Of a DNA stretch of 34,122 nt, positions 22,341-34,122 are shown piece after piece (positions within the stretch are counted from its first letter, which is position 1; each line of letters begins with the position of its first letter). The notes under the pieces are model-generated. The model searched no databases and was not told the origin of the DNA. It was given only the letters and a program-made list of their open reading frames with translations. The DNA is from Parabacteroides sp. (GTDB lineage Bacteria; Bacteroidota; Bacteroidia; Bacteroidales; Tannerellaceae). The stretch spans positions 1-34,122 of the forward strand of contig JALFJR010000093.1 in the NCBI GenBank assembly GCA_022775005.1. The letters are read 5' to 3'. The translations under genes and the position numbers were made by a program.

Positions 22341-22403
22341 CTGTTCTACTTTTTACAATTGATCAATAAAGATAGGATAGGGGGAGAAGTCGTTCTGTTC
22401 ACG

Positions 22404-22492
22404 TCGCTGTTCCCTTCGTCGGCATAATCCGCATCAGGTTCAATGGGTATGATCTCAGCAGCTGTCAGTCGGGCTGCACCCCTCGCATCGTC
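22404..22492 (-). promoter_or_regulatory. TPP riboswitch (THI element)
   Basis: Minus strand contains the conserved thi-box blocks in order: GGGGTGC, CTGAGATCATACCC, GAACCTGATGCGGATTATGCC and GACGAAGGGAA. TPP binding should turn off thiD-thiE-thiC expression. I see no U-tract hairpin between aptamer and thiD ATG, so control is more likely at translation initiation; that point is inference. Confidence 0.95.
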
Positions 22493-22508
22493 TTTCTCAA
22501 TGATGGAG

Positions 22509-26421: not shown

Positions 26422-27150
26422 TCAATAAGCAATCCGGAAATAATCGAGGATGCATTTGAAGGTGTCCTGAGCTGTGAGGCAGGTATCTCGAAGGTAGCCG
26501 GGAATGCGAGGCCATTCATGCAGTCCTCGGTAATAGAAGAAACGCAGTTCCTCAGTGATAATGAAAGGCACGATCCCATTCGCCAAGCACTCCTTGAATA
26601 GGATCAAACGACCGACTCGGCCATTGCCATCTTGGAAAGGATGGATCGCCTCGAAACGCTGGTGAAAATCCAGCAGATCATCCAGAGTACGTGTCTCCAA
26701 ACTGTTGTAGTGCGCCAAAAGAGCCTCCATGTCGGTATGCACTTGCTCCGGAGCCGATGTCTCCATACCGCCTACCTCGTTGGGTAATTGCTTGTATTCT
26801 CCCACGTTGAACCAAGACTTGCGACTGTCCGAGGTGCCTGATTTCAGCAACCGATGTAACTCTTTGATCATCTTTTCGGTCAAGGGTTGCTCCGCCTGTT
26901 CGATGATAAAGTCGTTGCACCGGAAATGATTGGTGGTCTCGATGATGTCATCCACGTTGATCGTCTCCTTGCTCGTCACCCCAATGGTATTTGTCTCGAA
27001 GATATAGCGTGTTTGGTCGTGTGTCAGCCGACTTCCCTCGATATGATTGCTGTTGAAGGTCAGGTCAATCTGCACCTTGTGATAGATGCCGCCTTTCAGC
27101 TGCATCCGCTTCTGCTCCCGCAACGTTTCCAGAAGATAGTTCTTTGCCAT
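26422..27150 (-). CDS. Fic-domain protein, class II with N-terminal inhibitory helix
   Basis: Fic enzymes transfer AMP (or other phosphate-containing groups) to protein hydroxyls. 242 residues from the ATG at 27150, chosen because a -7 promoter element at 27171-27178 leaves upstream codons untranscribed. The active-site motif HPFQDGNGRVGR (His170 to Arg181) is complete. Near the N-terminus SNHIEG fits the (S/T)xxxE(G/N) inhibitory motif with Glu38, so the enzyme should be autoinhibited in cis. No antitoxin gene is adjacent, as expected for class II. Target unknown. Confidence 0.92.
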   Translation of the reverse strand: MAKNYLLETLREQKRMQLKGGIYHKVQIDLTFNSNHIEGSRLTHDQTRYIFETNTIGVTSKETINVDDIIETTNHFRCNDFIIEQAEQPLTEKMIKELHRLLKSGTSDSRKSWFNVGEYKQLPNEVGGMETSAPEQVHTDMEALLAHYNSLETRTLDDLLDFHQRFEAIHPFQDGNGRVGRLILFKECLANGIVPFIITEELRFFYYRGLHEWPRIPGYLRDTCLTAQDTFKCILDYFRIAY

Positions 27151-27170
27151 CACTTTAATAGATTTGTGGG

Positions 27171-27178
27171 CAAAGATA
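27171..27178 (-). promoter_or_regulatory. -7 element of the fic promoter
   Basis: Minus strand TATCTTTG matches TAnnTTTG, 21 bp before the chosen ATG. The 22-bp repeat array begins about 45 bp further upstream. Confidence 0.6.
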
Positions 27179-27222
27179 CGATTCCCCTTGAATCTCCCAA
27201 AGCGGAGAGGGACGGATTTTTC

Positions 27223-27342
27223 GTTGCCCATCGAAAAGAAAAACGTTGCCCATGGTCTTGAAAAACGACGGGCAACGTCTCAAAAAACGATGGGCAATGT
27301 TTTCGAAAACGACGGGCAACGTTTTGTGAAATGACGGGCAAT
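27223..27342. repeat. Six-copy, 22-bp-period repeat array between trpA and fic
   Basis: A 9-base core occurs six times, starting at 27223, 27245, 27268, 27290, 27312 and 27334: spacing 22, 23, 22, 22, 22. The two left copies read GTTGCCCAT; the four right copies read RYGGGCAAY (ACGGGCAAC, ATGGGCAAT, ACGGGCAAC, ACGGGCAAT). Spacers are A/T-rich and share GAAAACG-like sequence. The period is not a multiple of three, so it is not coding. On the minus strand ACGTTGCCC and GGGCAACGT of the third and second copies form a 9-bp stem followed by TTTTTCTTTTC, which can terminate trp transcription. It may also bind a protein. Confidence 0.8.
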
Positions 27343-27370: not shown

Positions 27371-28144
27371 TCACTGCTTCAGCGCAGCTAACAATTGATC
27401 CACCGCACCGGCAATGGTCGGCTCACTCTTCAGCAGTTGCACGAACTTGCTGCCGATGATGGCACCGGAGGAGTTGGCCGCAGCGGCCTCGAAGGTGGCT
27501 TTGTTGCTGATGCCGAAACCGACCAAACGAGGGTTGCGCAGGTTCATGGAGTTGATGCGACGGAAATAGGCCTGCTTCTGCTCGTTGAAACTCTGCTGGG
27601 CACCTGTCGTGGCCGCACTTGACACCATGTAGATAAATCCGCTGGTGTGTGCGTCAATCAGGCGGATGCGCTCCTCAGAGGTCTCTGGGGTAATCAACAT
27701 GATCATCTTCAAGTCATACCGATCGGCGATCGCCTTGTAGTCGGCTATATAGTCTGCATAGGGCAGGTCGGGAATGATCATGCCATCCACACCCACCTCG
27801 GCACAGCTTTGGCAGAAGGCCTCGAAGCCATATTGCATGATGGGGTTCAGATAGCCCATCAAGATGATCGGGATCTGCACCGTTTGCCGGATCTCTTTCA
27901 GCTGCTGGAAGAGCAGACGCAGGGACATGCCGTTGCGCAGGGCCACGGTACTGGCCTCTTGGATCACGGGGCCATCGGCCATCGGATCGGAGAAGGGTAT
28001 GCCTACCTCCACCATGTTCACACCTTTCGCCTCCAGTTCCCGCAGGATGGTGGTCGTATCGTTCAGTTGGGGATAGCCTGCCGTGAAATAGACGGAGAGT
28101 ATGCCCGCTTTCTTTGTCTCAAATAAGTTGGTTATGCGATTCAT
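27371..28144 (-). CDS. trpA: Tryptophan synthase alpha chain
   Basis: Cleaves indole-3-glycerol phosphate to indole and glyceraldehyde-3-phosphate and passes indole to TrpB. 257 residues, TIM barrel. [18 protein letters not shown] carries Glu46 and Asp57, with the same 11-residue spacing as the catalytic Glu49/Asp60 of E. coli TrpA. PDLPYAD and [14 protein letters not shown] are also typical. Last gene of the operon, separated from trpF by a 100-bp gap with an A/T-rich repeat. Confidence 0.96.
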
Positions 28145-28171
28145 CTTTTTCGATTTTGAGTTTTGAATAAT

Positions 28172-28253
28172 AAATTATGAGTTATGAATTATGGATTATG
28201 AATTGTTTTTGAGTGAATCGAAAAGGTCATTCATAATTCAAAATTCATAATTT
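28172..28253. repeat. A/T-rich inverted and direct repeats between trpF and trpA
   Basis: The left arm (28172-28204) is built of TTATGAATT-like units in tandem. The right arm (28229-28253) is ATTCATAATTC-AAAATTCATAATTT, largely complementary to it, so the transcript could form a long weak hairpin inside the trp operon. The right arm supplies the last residues and TGA stop of trpF. Such ATTCATAATTC tracts are, as I recall, common between Bacteroidales genes. Confidence 0.75.
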
Positions 28254-28883
28254 AAAATTATTTTGAAAGCTGCGCAGGGTTTCTGCTTGCTTCACCCCGG
28301 GAGCCGACTCGAAGCCGCTGTTGAGGTCGATGCCTGCCCAACGGGGATGGTGAAAGCGTTGCAGATCGGCGGCCATCTCGGGGCGAACACCTCCGCTCAA
28401 CAGGAAGGGAGTCTCCCCTTGATAGTCTTGCAGCAGGCTCCAGTCAAACCGTTGGCCGGAGCCGCCATAGCCTGCACACTTGGTGTCGAAGAGGAAATAG
28501 TCCACCCGACCGGCATAGTCCGCCGTGTGCGCCAGATCCTCCGCCGTAGCGATGGAGAAGGCCTTGATCAATGCATAGCCTCGCTTCTGCAGGGCATAGC
28601 AAAAGTCGGGTGACTCGTGGCCATGCAGCTGTAAATAGTCCAGTCGATACTGTTGCGCTACCTCCATGATCTCCTCTTGCGATGCGTTGACGAAGACACC
28701 CACCCGCTTCGGACGGAAAGCGTCAGCCGTGATCAGCTGTCGCACTCGCTCCGCCTCGGCCGGATCCCGCAACAGGCAGCGAGGAGAGGGGGTATAGAAG
28801 ATGAAGCCCGTCCACTGGATGCCTGTCTTGGCTACGGCTTGGATATTTTCGGCCTGGCATAGGCCACAAACTTTCGTAATCAT
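28245..28883 (-). CDS. trpF: Phosphoribosylanthranilate isomerase
   Basis: Amadori isomerisation of phosphoribosylanthranilate to CdRP. 212 residues, TIM barrel. ITKVCGLCQAENI gives the catalytic Cys (KxCG), RVGVFVNAS, YLQLHGHESPDF, FLFDTKCAGYGGSGQRFDW with the catalytic Asp, and PFLLSGGVRPEMA the phosphate site. Overlaps trpC by 4 bp. The final residues and stop lie inside the A/T-rich repeat, so the original 3' end may have been altered by it. Confidence 0.95.
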   Translation of the reverse strand: MITKVCGLCQAENIQAVAKTGIQWTGFIFYTPSPRCLLRDPAEAERVRQLITADAFRPKRVGVFVNASQEEIMEVAQQYRLDYLQLHGHESPDFCYALQKRGYALIKAFSIATAEDLAHTADYAGRVDYFLFDTKCAGYGGSGQRFDWSLLQDYQGETPFLLSGGVRPEMAADLQRFHHPRWAGIDLNSGFESAPGVKQAETLRSFQNNFKL

Positions 28884-29671
28884 TGCAGTGCTTCGATAAA
28901 GTGACGCAATGTTTCACCCGGCTGAGCGGTCTTCATGAAGGTCTCACCGATCAAGAAGCCCCGGAAACCGGCGGCTCTAAGCAGCTTGACGGTCTCCGTT
29001 TGCGAGATACCGCTCTCGGAAACCAACAGGGGATCGTAGCCTTTGAGTTGCTCGATCAGCTTGAAGGAATGCTTCACGTCCGTGTCGAAAGTACCTAAAT
29101 GCCGGTTGTTTACACCCAGCATATCAATGTCGGCATTCACGTGATCCAGTTCTTCGGCACGATGCACTTCTAACAGCACCTCCAACTGCAAGCTGTGCGC
29201 CGTGGCTGCCAACTGGGCACACTCCTCGGTCGTGAGGCAGGCGGCGATCAGCAACACCGCATCGGCACCCATCACCCGGGCTTGGTAAAGCTGGTAGGGA
29301 TCGATGATGAAATCCTTCCGCAGCAACGGGATTTCCACCAACCGACGAGCCTGTTGCAGGTCAGTCAGCGAGCCACCGAAGAAGTTTCCGTCGGTCAGAA
29401 TCGAGCAGGCCGAAGCACCGCCCTCGGCATAGAAGGGGAGCACCTCCTGCACCTGCGCACCGGGATGCAACCACCCTTTTGAGGGGCTCTTCCGCTTGAA
29501 CTCGGCGATGATGCCCGTTTCAGAGGTGGCCAAAGCCTGTCGCATGGAGCGGGTGGGACGTTCCAACCGGTCACCTCCCAAAGCCACCAACGTCTGGAGG
29601 CTGACGGCCTGTTTCTGCCGCTCCACCTCCTTCCGTTTGTTCGCTACGATTGTCTCTAAGATGTCTGCCAT
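28880..29671 (-). CDS. trpC: Indole-3-glycerol phosphate synthase
   Basis: Closes the indole ring: CdRP to indole-3-glycerol phosphate. 263 residues. Conserved pieces: IIAEFKRKSPSKGWL (catalytic Lys and substrate site), ILTDGNFFGGSLTDLQ, LLRKDFIIDPYQLYQAR, LGVNNRHLGTF and VSESGISQTETV. Separate from trpF (no TrpC-TrpF fusion as in enterobacteria). Four bp after the trpD stop. Confidence 0.96.
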   Translation of the reverse strand: MADILETIVANKRKEVERQKQAVSLQTLVALGGDRLERPTRSMRQALATSETGIIAEFKRKSPSKGWLHPGAQVQEVLPFYAEGGASACSILTDGNFFGGSLTDLQQARRLVEIPLLRKDFIIDPYQLYQARVMGADAVLLIAACLTTEECAQLAATAHSLQLEVLLEVHRAEELDHVNADIDMLGVNNRHLGTFDTDVKHSFKLIEQLKGYDPLLVSESGISQTETVKLLRAAGFRGFLIGETFMKTAQPGETLRHFIEALQ

Positions 29672-29675
29672 AGGA

Positions 29676-30671
29676 TCAGCTATTCATAGATACATATTGC
29701 TTGAATGTCGCTAACGCACGGCCGCTCTCCAACGATTCCTTCGCCTCGGCGATACAGATCTCGATCGGTTTCTCCGAGCAGATCACTTGGATAGCGAAGG
29801 CGGAGTTGATCACCACGCAGTTGCGCTGTGCCTCCGTAGCCCGGTTCTCCAAGACGGCGTCGAAGATGCGTGCGGCCTCTTCCGGGGTGCTCCCTCCGTC
29901 GAGATCCGCCTCCGTGCAACGCTTGAAGCCCAACATCTCGGGTGAGTAGATCTTCTCCTTCTCCGGCATAGCCACCTTGAAATCGGCGGTCAAGGAGATC
30001 TCGTCATAGCCGTCCAAACTGTGTACCACAGCGAAGCGGGTACCGCTCTCTTGGTAGGTGTAGTTGTAGAGACGCAACAGCGGCAGGTTATAGACACCCA
30101 ACAGCTGATAGGCCGGCATGGCCGGATTGACCAACGGACCCAGCATGTTGAAGAAGCTACGCACACCGAGGTTCTTGCGCACCGGAGCGACCGCCTTCAA
30201 GGCCGGGTTGAAGAGCGGCGCATGCAGGTAGGTGATGTGGCAAGTCTCCATGTTGCGACGCAGTTGGTCGTTGTTGTTCGTGAACTTCAGGCCATGTTGC
30301 TCCATCACGTTGCTGGCACCGCTGACCGAAGTGGCACCATAGTTTCCATGCTTCACCACGTTGTAGCCCGCACCGGCCACCACGAAGCAGGAGCAGGTGC
30401 TGATGTTGAAGGTGTTCTTGCCGTCACCGCCTGTTCCGACGATGTCGATCGGCTTGAAATCTTGCAGATCCACGGGGACACGCATCTCAAGCAAGGCCTC
30501 CCGGAAACCGGTCAACTCCTCCACGGAGATACTGCGCATCAAGAAGACCGTGATCAGGCTGGCGATCTGCGCATCGTTGTAGCGCCCTTCGGCGATATGC
30601 TGGAGGATGGCCCGTGCCTCCTCCCGTCCTAAGTATTGATGTTCGAATAGACGATATAAGAGTTGTTTCAT
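29676..30671 (-). CDS. trpD: Anthranilate phosphoribosyltransferase
   Basis: Adds PRPP to anthranilate. 331 residues. PRPP/metal motif DIVGTGGDGKNTFNIST and the glycine-rich KHGNYGATSVSGASNVME are clear. The latter differs slightly from the usual KHGNRxxSSxSGxADxLE. NLGVRSFFNMLGPLVNPA follows. Independent of the glutaminase TrpG, unlike the fused enterobacterial form. Confidence 0.95.
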   Translation of the reverse strand: MKQLLYRLFEHQYLGREEARAILQHIAEGRYNDAQIASLITVFLMRSISVEELTGFREALLEMRVPVDLQDFKPIDIVGTGGDGKNTFNISTCSCFVVAGAGYNVVKHGNYGATSVSGASNVMEQHGLKFTNNNDQLRRNMETCHITYLHAPLFNPALKAVAPVRKNLGVRSFFNMLGPLVNPAMPAYQLLGVYNLPLLRLYNYTYQESGTRFAVVHSLDGYDEISLTADFKVAMPEKEKIYSPEMLGFKRCTEADLDGGSTPEEAARIFDAVLENRATEAQRNCVVINSAFAIQVICSEKPIEICIAEAKESLESGRALATFKQYVSMNS

Positions 30672-30690
30672 AATACAAAGTTCTTGCGAA

Positions 30691-31257
30691 TTAAATGGAT
30701 AACCAGTTTTTAATGATCTCTTTGCCTTGCGGGGTCAGCACCGATTCGGGATGGAACTGGATGCCACGCACGTTGTATTCCTTGTGGCGCAGTCCCATGA
30801 TCTGTCCCTCTTCCGTGTCCTCTGCTGTAATCTCCAAGCAATCGGGGAGATCCTCTTTTGACACGACCCAAGAGTGGTAGCGACCGACACGAAGTGTACG
30901 ATCTAAGCCATTGAACAGGGGATCATTCGCTACGACACGTACATCGGAGCAAACGCCGTGATGCACCTCCGTCAGGTTGATCAGCTTGGCACCGAATGCC
31001 TCGCCGATGGCTTGCTCGCCTAAACAGACTCCCAGAATGCTCTTGGTCGGTGCATAGCGACGGATCAAGGGAAGCAGAATACCTGCCTCCTCGGGAATAC
31101 CCGGACCGGGAGAGAGCACGATTTTGTCGAACCGATCCACCTCGTCGAGCGTGATCTTGTCGTTGCGGAACACCTCCACATCCGCACCTAATTCCTTCAG
31201 GATGTGCAGCAGGTTGTAGGTGAAGGAATCGTAGTTGTCAAATAGTAATATCTTCAT
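30691..31257 (-). CDS. trpG: Anthranilate synthase glutamine amidotransferase subunit
   Basis: Class I glutaminase that supplies ammonia to TrpE. 188 residues. FDNYDSFTYNL at the start, SPGPGIPEEAG oxyanion region, nucleophile Cys78 in GVCLGEQAIGEAFG, and His169/Glu171 in IQFHPES. The residue after GVCLG is Glu81 rather than the common His; it is not one of the catalytic triad. Could also serve folate synthesis as a shared PabA; no second candidate is visible in the window. Confidence 0.94.
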   Translation of the reverse strand: MKILLFDNYDSFTYNLLHILKELGADVEVFRNDKITLDEVDRFDKIVLSPGPGIPEEAGILLPLIRRYAPTKSILGVCLGEQAIGEAFGAKLINLTEVHHGVCSDVRVVANDPLFNGLDRTLRVGRYHSWVVSKEDLPDCLEITAEDTEEGQIMGLRHKEYNVRGIQFHPESVLTPQGKEIIKNWLSI

Positions 31258-31272
31258 GGTTTTCAGCTTTTA

Positions 31273-32673
31273 TCAGTTGATTAATTTCTCGGCCAGGTCG
31301 ATCGCCTTCTTCAAGGCACCCAGCTTGTTGTTCACCTCTTGCAACTCTCTTGCGTCGTTGCTCTTCGCCACGATACCGGCTCCGGCCTGGTAGTAGAGCA
31401 CATTGCCACGGCTCACGAAGCTACGGATCGTGATGGCTTGGTTCAGGTCGCCATCCAGTCCGATGAAACCGATGCAACCGCCATAGGCGCCTCGGTTGTG
31501 CTTCTCCAAGTCGGTGATCAACTGCATTGCCCGTACCTTCGGCGCACCACTCAGCGTACCGGCCGGGAAGGTGTCAATATAGGTCTTCACGGGATTGCTC
31601 TCCGGGTTGATCTCACCGCTGACCCGAGAGACGAGGTGGATCACATGGCTATAGAACTGCACTTCCTTGTAGAAATCCACCTGCACGTGGTTAGCATTGC
31701 GGCTCAGGTCGTTGCGGGCCAGATCAACCAACATCACATGCTCGGCATTCTCTTTCGGATCGTTTACCAATGCCTCGGTACGCTGTTTATCCACCTCCAT
31801 ATTACCCGTACGGAAGGCGGTTCCGGCGATCGGGTCGATGCTGGCATGACCAGCGGCTACCTTGCAGTGTGTTTCCGGGGAAGAGCCGAAGATGCGGAAG
31901 CCCCCAAAGTCGAAATAGAAGAGGTAGGGAGAGGGGTTGATGCTGCGCAAAGCCCGATAGACCTTGAAATCATCTCCCTTGAAAGCCTGTTCGAAACGGC
32001 GGCTCAACACGATCTGGAACACATCACCCCGGAGGCAATGCTTGATGCCTTGGCGCACCATCGCCCGATACTCGTCGTCGGTGATGGGAGAGCTCTCCGG
32101 TCCCACGGCCTGGAAGTTGTAGGAGGCGAAGTTGCGGTTCTCCAAGAGTGTCTGGATCTCGTCCAACTGGCTTGCCTCTCCCTCGCCTTGCAGCTGCACC
32201 AAGGTCAGCTCATTCTTGAAATGGTCGAAGACAAGGATATACTTATATAATAGGTAGAGCATATCGGGAGCGTCGTTCTCGGCATGGTGAGCCTCCATGA
32301 CCGGGATCTGCTCGAAGTAGCGCACCGCATCGAAAGCGGTATAGCCGAAGAGACCGCAGATCTTGCGATCCGCTCCCGTCACTTGGAACTGACTGAGGAA
32401 CGCATTCATCGCATCTGCCACGTTATAGCTTTCCGTGAGCGGTTTCACCTCCCGATGGCCATCGGGGAACTCGCTGGTGCATTCGCCATTGTTGATGCCT
32501 ATGCTGGCGATGGGGCAGAGGGCGATGTAGGAAAGGCTGTTTTCGTTGCCGTGGAAGTCGGAACTCTCCAACAATGCGGATTCGGGATAGATGTCCCTCA
32601 CCTTCAGATAGATGCTGACGGGCGTATGCAGGTCGCCCATGATCTTTTTACTGATCGTATGAAACTGATACAT
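31273..32673 (-). CDS. trpE: Anthranilate synthase component I
   Basis: Converts chorismate to anthranilate with ammonia from TrpG. 466 residues. LLESSDF near residues 35-41 is the tryptophan feedback site (LLES). The chorismate-binding domain has VFQIVLSRRFE, DPIAGTAFRTG, EHVMLVDLARNDLSR, GTLSGAPKVRAMQLI and GGCIGFIGLDGDLNQAITIRS. The LLES motif and trp-operon context favour TrpE over PabB. Starts six bp after the trpB stop. Confidence 0.95.
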   Translation of the reverse strand: MYQFHTISKKIMGDLHTPVSIYLKVRDIYPESALLESSDFHGNENSLSYIALCPIASIGINNGECTSEFPDGHREVKPLTESYNVADAMNAFLSQFQVTGADRKICGLFGYTAFDAVRYFEQIPVMEAHHAENDAPDMLYLLYKYILVFDHFKNELTLVQLQGEGEASQLDEIQTLLENRNFASYNFQAVGPESSPITDDEYRAMVRQGIKHCLRGDVFQIVLSRRFEQAFKGDDFKVYRALRSINPSPYLFYFDFGGFRIFGSSPETHCKVAAGHASIDPIAGTAFRTGNMEVDKQRTEALVNDPKENAEHVMLVDLARNDLSRNANHVQVDFYKEVQFYSHVIHLVSRVSGEINPESNPVKTYIDTFPAGTLSGAPKVRAMQLITDLEKHNRGAYGGCIGFIGLDGDLNQAITIRSFVSRGNVLYYQAGAGIVAKSNDARELQEVNNKLGALKKAIDLAEKLIN

Positions 32674-32679
32674 GATGGT

Positions 32680-33870
32680 TTACTTTTTATTCATTTTGTA
32701 ATGGATGTAGGTCGGCATGTCCTTGTCGCCACGACCGGAGACAGTCAGCACGACTACGTCGGTGGGTTGGAAATTCATTTTCGGCAGGGCACCCAGTGCG
32801 TGGGCACTCTCCAAGGCCGGAATGATACCCTCCAAGCGGGTCAGATCGAAGGCAGCATCTAAGGCTTCATCGTCGTTCACGGCGATCACCTTTGCCCGGT
32901 GTGTCTCGGAGAGGTTGGCGTGCATCGGGCCAATACCCGGATAGTCCAAGCCGGCGGAAACGGAATAGGGCTCCTCGATCTGGCCATCCTCGTTTTGCAT
33001 CACGAGTGTACGTGCGCCGTGGATGATTCCTTTCTTGCCCAACTGGATCGTGGCTGCGCTCTTACCGGAGAAGATGCCTAAACCACCGGCCTCAGCCAGG
33101 ACGATCTTGACCCGCTCATCGTCGAGGAAGTGATAGATGGTGCCCGCCGCGTTACTACCACCGCCCACGCAAGCCATCAGGTAGTCGGGATAGTCCCGTC
33201 CCTCTTGCTCCAAGAGTTGCTTCTTGATCTCGGCACTGATCACCGATTGCAGACGAGCCACCATGTCGGGATAGGGGTGAGGCCCTACCGTAGAGCCAAT
33301 GATATAATAGGTATCGGAGGGGTGGCAGCACCAGTCACGGATCGCCTCGTTGGTGGCATCTTTCAGGGTCATGTTGCCCGAAGTCACCGGTACGACGGTC
33401 GCACCCAACATCTCCATCTTTTGTACATTGGCATGTTGCCGTTCTACGTCGGTCTTACCCATATAGACCACGCACTCCATGTTCATCAAGGCACAAACGG
33501 TAGCGGTCGCCACGCCATGCTGTCCGGCACCCGTCTCGGCGATAATCCGCTTCTTGCCCATGCGTCGGGCGATCAGGATCTGGCCGATCGTGTTGTTGAT
33601 CTTGTGTGCGCCTGTGTGGTTGAGGTCTTCTCGCTTCAGATAGATCTTGCAGCCGTAGCGCTCACTGAGTCGTTTGGCGAAGTAGAGTGGAGAGGGGCGA
33701 CCCACATAGTCCTTCAACAGCTGGATGAACTCTGCTTTGAAGCTATCGCTCTCCATCACCTTAAGGTAGTTCTTGCGTAGGTTCTCCACGCATTGATGCA
33801 GGATCTCGGGAATATAGGCCCCGCCAAATTCTCCGTAGTAACCATTCTGATCTACTTGATACGTTTCCAT
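32680..33870 (-). CDS. trpB: Tryptophan synthase beta chain
   Basis: PLP enzyme joining indole and serine into tryptophan. 396 residues, type 1 Trp[14 protein letters not shown] at the N-terminus, PLP Lys90 in [37 protein letters not shown] (phosphate loop) and [11 protein letters not shown]. It is the first structural gene of the operon, unlike the enterobacterial order, and lies directly behind the attenuator. Confidence 0.97.
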
Positions 33871-33921
33871 CTTTGTCTATTATTTGTTTGTTGTTTCATT
33901 CCTGATCAATTCGATAACCCT

Positions 33922-33963
33922 TCTAAAAACAGAAGAGGCCCGCCGCAAGTGCGACAGACCTCT
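33922..33963 (-). terminator. trp attenuator hairpin
   Basis: In the leader RNA AGAGGTCTGTCGC pairs along all 13 positions (some G-U) with GCGGCGGGCCTCT around the loop ACTT, followed by TCTGTTTTTAG. It lies 38 bases after the leader-peptide stop and about 50 bp before trpB. The upstream segment GGGACGAAGGCC (34001-33990) can pair with the GGTCTGTC of its 5' arm, giving a mutually exclusive antiterminator. Confidence 0.85.
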
Positions 33964-34001
33964 TTGTTCTTATCTTGGTATATACATACGGCCTTCGTCC
34001 C

Positions 34002-34061
34002 TTACGACTTTGTGAGTTGTAAAGAGCGCCACCACCAATATGTATTTACGAATGTTCTCAT
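34002..34061 (-). CDS. trpL: trp operon leader peptide
   Basis: A 19-codon reading frame MRTFVNTYWWWRSLQLTKS on the minus strand, ATG at 34061-34059 and TAA at 34004-34002. Three consecutive Trp codons occupy 34037-34029. It sits between a consensus promoter and a terminator hairpin ahead of trpB. A ribosome stalled at the Trp codons leaves GGGACGAAGGCC free to form the antiterminator; a ribosome that reaches the TAA would cover that same segment and allow termination. This is the classical attenuation design; the peptide itself needs no function. Confidence 0.88.
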   Translation of the reverse strand: MRTFVNTYWWWRSLQLTKS

Positions 34062-34085
34062 CTGTTTGTTTTATTATTTCGGCAG

Positions 34086-34116
34086 CAAAAGTAGCTGTTT
34101 TTTGATAATCCGCAAA
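34086..34116 (-). promoter_or_regulatory. trp operon promoter
   Basis: Minus strand reads TTTG, 19 bases, TACTTTTG, a full match to the Bacteroidetes -33/-7 consensus. The -7 element ends 24 bp before the leader-peptide ATG. Confidence 0.8.
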
Positions 34117-34122
34117 TAAAAA

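Follow-up and report, generated by a model that had tools for sequence, protein, structure and literature searches.

A Bacteroid-trp-family leader predicted to control trpBEGDCFA by ribosome-mediated attenuation in Parabacteroides, and candidate leaders of similar layout ahead of other amino-acid operons

Introduction

The DNA upstream of trpB in a Parabacteroides genome raises the question of whether the tryptophan synthesis genes are switched by a ribosome that translates a short, Trp-rich leader, and whether such a switch belongs to a known kind. In the trp leader attenuator of Escherichia coli, a leader peptide containing two Trp codons is combined with three mutually exclusive hairpins, 1:2, 2:3 and 3:4. 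An earlier note on the window (the whole stretch of DNA analysed, 34,122 nt) had read a promoter, a 19-residue leader with three tandem Trp codons, a terminator and a competing antiterminator strand ahead of trpB, and suggested that attenuation of this kind may be little described in Bacteroidales. Judged from its sequence, the trp attenuator is real and of an already catalogued kind, and its function is what we infer from the evidence given below. What the present analysis adds is a refined picture of the antiterminator and a set of sister leaders in the same genome.

Anatomy of the trp leader

The leader lies on the minus strand between 34116 and 33925, and the contig ends at 34122, up to which the upstream sequence could be read. 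The promoter reported ahead of it was confirmed by eye as the element TTTG (34113–34116, −) followed after 19 nt by TACTTTTG (34086–34093, −), a pair which we take to represent the Bacteroidota −33/−7 promoter type. Among 108 related leaders, 105 have the −7 form TAnnTTTG ahead of them, compared with 5 of the 108 when the opposite strand is read, and a sigma-70 scan of 33800–34122 detected no site on the leader's strand. The ORF at 34061–34002 (−) translates to MRTFVNTYWWWRSLQLTKS and comprises 19 codons and a stop codon, as had been claimed; its three tandem Trp codons (WWW, 34029–34037, −) constitute the putative sensor. No Shine-Dalgarno sequence was seen ahead of this ORF.

The terminator hairpin (3:4; 33964–33933, −) has 14 pairs, a 4-nt loop ACUU and a folding energy of −23.5 kcal/mol; according to the terminator scan it carries the tail CTGTTTTT, and the U-rich stretch CUGUUUUU occupies 33925–33932 (−). 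Two terminator-like sites were detected in 33800–34122, compared with a mean of 0.2 in shuffled sequences, one of them being the leader terminator and the other lying on the opposite strand. Thus, the locus has tandem sensor codons within a leader ORF and an intrinsic terminator before the first gene. That gene is indeed trpB (32680–33870, −; TIGR00263, 579 bits, cut-off 392), the start of which lies 131 nt past the leader stop codon. Profile matches identified homologues of trpE, trpG, trpD, trpC, trpF and trpA after it (27371–32673, −), the best trpE and trpF matches scoring under their curated cut-offs. Among the matches listed, the closest named relative of trpB (96% identity) comes from a strain labelled Parabacteroides distasonis An897. 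Downstream of trpA, the ORF at 26422–27231 (−) gave a weak, below-cut-off match to a Fic protein adenylyltransferase (32.6 bits).

The leader belongs to a catalogued family

The leader matched the Rfam 15 family RF01692, Bacteroid-trp ("Bacteroidete tryptophan peptide leader RNA"), at 33953–34084 (−) with 77.3 bits (gathering score 49, E 2.8e-8) over the full length of the model (1–131). With a score above the gathering cut-off and a position upstream of tryptophan synthesis genes, it is a clear member of this family, with which it shares the sequence and structure model, the tandem-Trp leader peptide and the location ahead of trp genes. The genome contains one RF01692 copy. At the gathering score, the Rfam matches of the window were Bacteroid-trp, a tRNA and TPP, and no others; the TPP riboswitch match (22392–22493, −; 54.7 bits versus a cut-off of 54.3) lies ahead of minus-strand ORFs extending from 22340 down.

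The expectation that the arrangement may be little described was not borne out for the kind as such. Bacteroid-trp originates from a 2010 survey (PMC2864571), where Table 1 gives the motif, assigned to Bacteroidetes, a lower-case y (likely) both as an RNA and as a cis-regulatory element, and a passage of PMC6414381 discusses the Bacteroid-trp leader of Flavobacterium psychrophilum; the name also occurs in PMC4977773. In the main text of the survey, the terms leader peptide, attenuation and tryptophan have no occurrences. The RF01692 model describes the 1:2 structure and ends inside the 5' arm of the terminator, which places the 2:3 and 3:4 helices outside the model; the original supplement of the family may describe these two helices.

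Conservation of the leader and its terminator

Of 123 genomes of the family, 64 contained RF01692, as did 46 genomes in a phylum-wide sample of 392; both searches had been run with stricter filters that lose weak matches. Since two genomes (G000 and G033) were common to both sets, this gave 108 distinct loci, all of which were read. A tandem-Trp frame starting with ATG was present in 106 of them, a count that is partly circular because the RF01692 model itself contains UGGUGG, and in the two exceptions (L030 and L072) the frame could be read by eye with a GTG start. The Trp run consisted of three codons in 85 and of two codons in 21 of the 106 ATG leaders, and an SD-like 4-mer preceded only 3 of them. 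The terminator was found at all 108 loci, even though the model covers no more than part of its 5' arm. Every one of the 106 ATG leaders was followed by a hairpin with a U-rich tail and a folding energy of −12 kcal/mol or lower, compared with 1/106 in mononucleotide-shuffled stretches.

According to tblastn with the proteins of the window, the first trp homologue downstream was trpB at 66 loci, trpE at 40 (a count which could include pabB-like genes) and trpD at 2. It started 30–336 nt past the Rfam match (median 69), the distance exceeding 200 nt at two loci (L024 and L079).

The presence of UGGUGG in the model was the reason for an independent search starting from trpB. The best 80 of 453 named trpB relatives were taken, of which 78 were usable and two were left out for short upstream sequence. 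A tandem-Trp leader with a terminator was present at 76 of the 78 loci, many of the 80 sharing species and the species overlapping with those of the Rfam-found set. The tandem Trp codons are therefore conserved in related leaders by both routes, as the earlier note required of a genuine attenuator. By eye, the trpB leader of L211 (about 1150–1500) has a single Trp codon and a retained terminator, its sensor codons being apparently reduced, and no tandem-Trp leader was seen upstream of trpB at L264.

Within the genus, a near full-length trpB match was obtained in 32 of 38 genomes (in one case with an internal stop codon), and 30 of these 32 also had an RF01692 match. The other two (L136 and L138, about 1289–1400) were seen by eye to carry a longer trp leader with YYYWW that was missed by Rfam, and additional Tyr sensing is possible there. 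The remaining six genomes, two with a partial trpB and four with a distant homologue only, had no RF01692 match (0/6).

Predicted exclusive folds and the core of the antiterminator

Folding of the leader RNA yielded mutually exclusive structures, as had been anticipated: 1:2 with the terminator on the one hand and 2:3 on the other, so that three mutually exclusive states are supported. In the whole free leader, 1:2 and the terminator form together (−53.8 kcal/mol). Folding and pair counts place strand 1 of the 1:2 protector structure at 34015–34049 (−), where it overlaps the Trp codons, and strand 2, the antiterminator strand GUCGUAAGGGACGAAGGCC, at 33990–34008 (−), where it holds the last codon and the stop codon of the leader. 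Strand 2 pairs in 16 pairs with GGUCUGUCGCACUUGCGGC (33942–33960, −), which consists of the terminator 5' arm, the loop and the upper 3' arm. When the growing RNA was folded from a 5' edge at 34020, presumably the boundary set by a ribosome positioned on the Trp codons, 2:3 appeared partially from 33956 and completely at 33942–33938 (−20.4 kcal/mol), and the terminator appeared only once its 3' arm had emerged. At full length the terminator (−34.3 kcal/mol) is far more stable than 2:3 (−18.9 kcal/mol), and antitermination would therefore have to be kinetic.

The antiterminator strand had previously been read as GGGACGAAGGCC, directly after the stop codon. This sequence is present at 34001–33990 (−) and does belong to strand 2, but it makes up only part of the strand, and the less conserved half. 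The better conserved half begins 7 nt before GGGACGAAGGCC and includes the last codons of the leader and its stop codon. On this reading of the sequence, the core of 2:3, GUCGUAAG, contains the leader stop codon and is predicted to pair with the terminator loop and 3' arm, a refinement that is absent from the RF01692 model. The leader stop codon lies at the same place in strand 2, starting 4 nt into a GUCGURA-type motif, in 73/106 cases. The frame passes through strand 2 in 7/106 leaders and stops 27–38 nt past the start of the motif; a frame translated through strand 2 would hide it too, but with a different reset step. In 5/106 leaders the motif was not found by the search pattern.

Pair counts were made for 67 leaders of the order (65 distinct rows) and for 41 leaders of the same class from outside the order; the helices share columns and the sequences share ancestry, so the counts do not represent independent events. 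In the order, 98.1% of the terminator cells were paired and 9 pairs had changed on both sides, compared with at most 59.0% and 6 pairs when the helix was slid. For the 2:3 core, GUCGUAAG with CUUGCGGC, the corresponding values were 96.9% and 4 pairs, sliding giving no more than 47.8% and 2 pairs, and one core A-U pair facing the terminator loop was G-C in 10 of 65 rows. In the second half of 2:3, where GGGACGAAGGCC lies, 8 pairs were tested, 74.6% were paired and 2 had changed on both sides; its slid versions reached at most 53.5% paired but up to 5 changed pairs, and its covariation in the order (0.135) was not above that of shuffles (0.138). For 1:2, 80.6% were paired (slid versions, at most 57.9%), with a covariation score of 0.213 against 0.177 in shuffled and at most 0.102 in slid versions. 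The 12 pairs of 1:2 that had changed on both sides speak neither way because slid versions gave 13 and 14; 1:2 exceeded its slides only in the cells paired, the cells changed and the covariation score.

Outside the order, 97.8% of the terminator cells were paired and 4 pairs had changed on both sides. The 2:3 core, which takes the form GUCGUGA with UCACGAC there, was 91.6% paired with one changed pair (slid versions, at most 55.9%), and its covariation among these 41 leaders was not above shuffles. In the second half of 2:3, 4 pairs were tested, 87.2% were paired and 2 had changed on both sides.

In addition, strands 2 and 3 were swapped between loci and scored as free local duplexes at 106 of the 108 loci, and native pairs were not favoured. 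The energies were −9.96 (native) versus −10.21 kcal/mol (swapped) for the rows of the family and −8.96 versus −8.57 for the other rows. Compared with shuffled strand 2, the native strand 2 had a mean z of −0.46, 24 of 106 loci falling below −1 (window, −0.5). With strand 3 hardly varying between loci and no register imposed, we regard the swap as a poor test and relied on the fixed-register pair counts in its place; the negative result stands.

Proposed mechanism and alternatives

Taken together, the conserved Trp codons, the exclusive folds and the Rfam match make ribosome-mediated trp attenuation the best reading of the locus, as originally proposed, and we are highly confident that trpBEGDCFA is under the control of an attenuator belonging to the Bacteroid-trp family. 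The transcript would begin shortly after the −7 box, and its 19 leader codons would be translated by a ribosome. When tRNA-Trp is charged, this ribosome would reach the stop codon and cover strand 2 (34008–33990), which would let the terminator (33964–33933) form. With uncharged tRNA-Trp, a ribosome stalled on WWW would break 1:2 and leave strand 2 free. While the 3' arm of the terminator was still being transcribed, strand 2 would pair with the upper part of this arm, the loop and the 5' arm; once 2:3 had formed, RNA polymerase would read into trpB. If the leader were not translated, 1:2 would form and transcription would be terminated. An exclusive antiterminator freed by a stalled ribosome is what the folding and the pair counts predict. 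Disruption of the core GUCGUAAG/CUUGCGGC should prevent induction, and a weaker effect is expected for CGAAGGCC.

The conserved 1:2 fold is an aptamer-like feature, and it could be imagined that the terminator is switched by a tryptophan- or tRNA-binding RNA (a riboswitch or a T-box) or by a TRAP-like protein, the short ORF being incidental. We consider this extremely unlikely, since pairing between strand 2 and the Trp-codon region accounts for the 1:2 fold, the tandem-Trp frame is kept open in 106/108 leaders with its stop codon held at one place in strand 2 in most of them, and the Bacteroid-trp, tRNA and TPP matches are the only ones in the window at the gathering score. The rarity of SD-like sequences ahead of the leaders is compatible with another role of leader translation, acting mainly through coupling, reinitiation (treated for leader genes in passages of PMC4833913) or Rho rather than through an intrinsic antiterminator. 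Such a role is very unlikely here: the terminator is universal among the 108 loci, the core of the exclusive antiterminator covaries in the order, and 131 nt separate the leader stop codon from the start of trpB.

The attenuator favoured here resembles that of E. coli in its Trp-codon leader peptide and in the three exclusive hairpins 1:2, 2:3 and 3:4. It differs from the latter in that a Shine-Dalgarno sequence is lacking, the promoter is of the Bacteroidota type, the leader has three rather than two Trp codons and carries its stop codon within strand 2, and trpB is the first gene of the operon.

Candidate sister leaders for other amino acids in the same genome

Upstream of hisG in the same genome (L147, contig C27 of G000, reverse strand), a His-rich leader, MKVIATLHLHHHCDGQ, with the run HLHHH is followed by a terminator. 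A leader with at least three His residues and a terminator was present at 22 of 30 hisG loci, this one included, whereas on the opposite strand of the same stretches the His rule gave 3/30 leaders and 0/30 with a terminator. The 30 loci derive from 31 returned out of 74 genomes with a match, L160 having given no start; the loci without such a leader were L148, L155, L157, L163, L164, L166 (start misplaced), L167 and L168. A poly-His pattern search of the genome gave nine places, the hisG leader not being among them, and none of those translated (that is, excepting L142, L146 and the ninth) was leader-like.

Upstream of ilvD (L179, contig C79), the leader MNNVLHIDLVVVLLSVSR is accompanied by a terminator, and GGAGAAAGG after its stop codon pairs with CCUUUCUCC in the terminator. 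Of 30 ilvD loci, including this one, 28 had a terminator preceded by an Ile/Leu/Val-rich leader, which often contained MNNVLHIILVVVLLVISR; all 30 loci returned, out of 57 genomes with a match, were counted, L267 and L268 were the misses, and the opposite-strand control refers to the His rule only. For the own genome only, a Leu-rich leader, MTRNTLQDLLISLSGILLWQQDRK, with a terminator was found upstream of leuA (L182, contig C71), where GGAAGUGAGA at the leader end pairs with UCUCACUUCC in the terminator, and a Phe/Tyr-rich leader, MHRFSFTYYFYYFYFSKVKAGVCM, with a terminator was found upstream of the prephenate dehydratase gene pheA (L178, contig C61), where the corresponding pairing is between GGCAGGA within the leader and UCCUGCC of the terminator.

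When partial transcripts of the his, ilv, leu and phe leaders were folded from past the sensor codons, each formed an antiterminator using the terminator 5' arm. At full hairpin length, the his and leu RNAs switched to the terminator, and the minimum of the phe and ilv RNAs was still the antiterminator.

None of the hisG, ilvD, leuA and pheA leader loci had an Rfam 15 match at the gathering score. Our literature search, which mostly excluded subscription papers, found none on leader-peptide attenuation of the his operon in Bacteroides, and we do not claim its absence from print; the same kind of search for ilv leader-peptide attenuation in Bacteroides gave only titles off topic. Passages of PMC9723704 report strong clues to leader-peptide attenuation before amino-acid operons in Flavobacterium psychrophilum and, for Flavobacteriaceae, name elements at hisG and pheA that had no Rfam hit, which resembles the present leaders in the mechanism proposed and in the lack of Rfam hits. 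However, that work concerns Flavobacteriaceae, whereas the hisG, ilvD, leuA and pheA leaders described here belong to a Parabacteroides-type genome. In Bacteroides thetaiotaomicron, short ORFs in 5' UTRs are described in a passage of PMC7366714 as reminiscent of leader peptides.

We think it likely that one shared SD-independent layout of leader-peptide attenuator serves five or more amino-acid operons of Bacteroidales, among them trp, his, ilv, leu and phe. In this layout the antiterminator strand is placed at the leader stop codon or close to it, where it would necessarily be hidden by a ribosome that completes the leader. The his, ilv, leu and phe leaders would then represent new RNA families, trp alone matching Rfam 15. 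If the sister leaders act alike, gut Bacteroidales would possess general amino-acid sensing by ribosome stalling without Shine-Dalgarno sequences, and a stalling system of this type would, if true, bear on transcription-translation coupling in the phylum.

Upstream of thrA in the same genome, no Thr run or clear attenuator was seen by eye; the region (L294) contains a short ORF of about 22 codons at about 2121–1990 (−).
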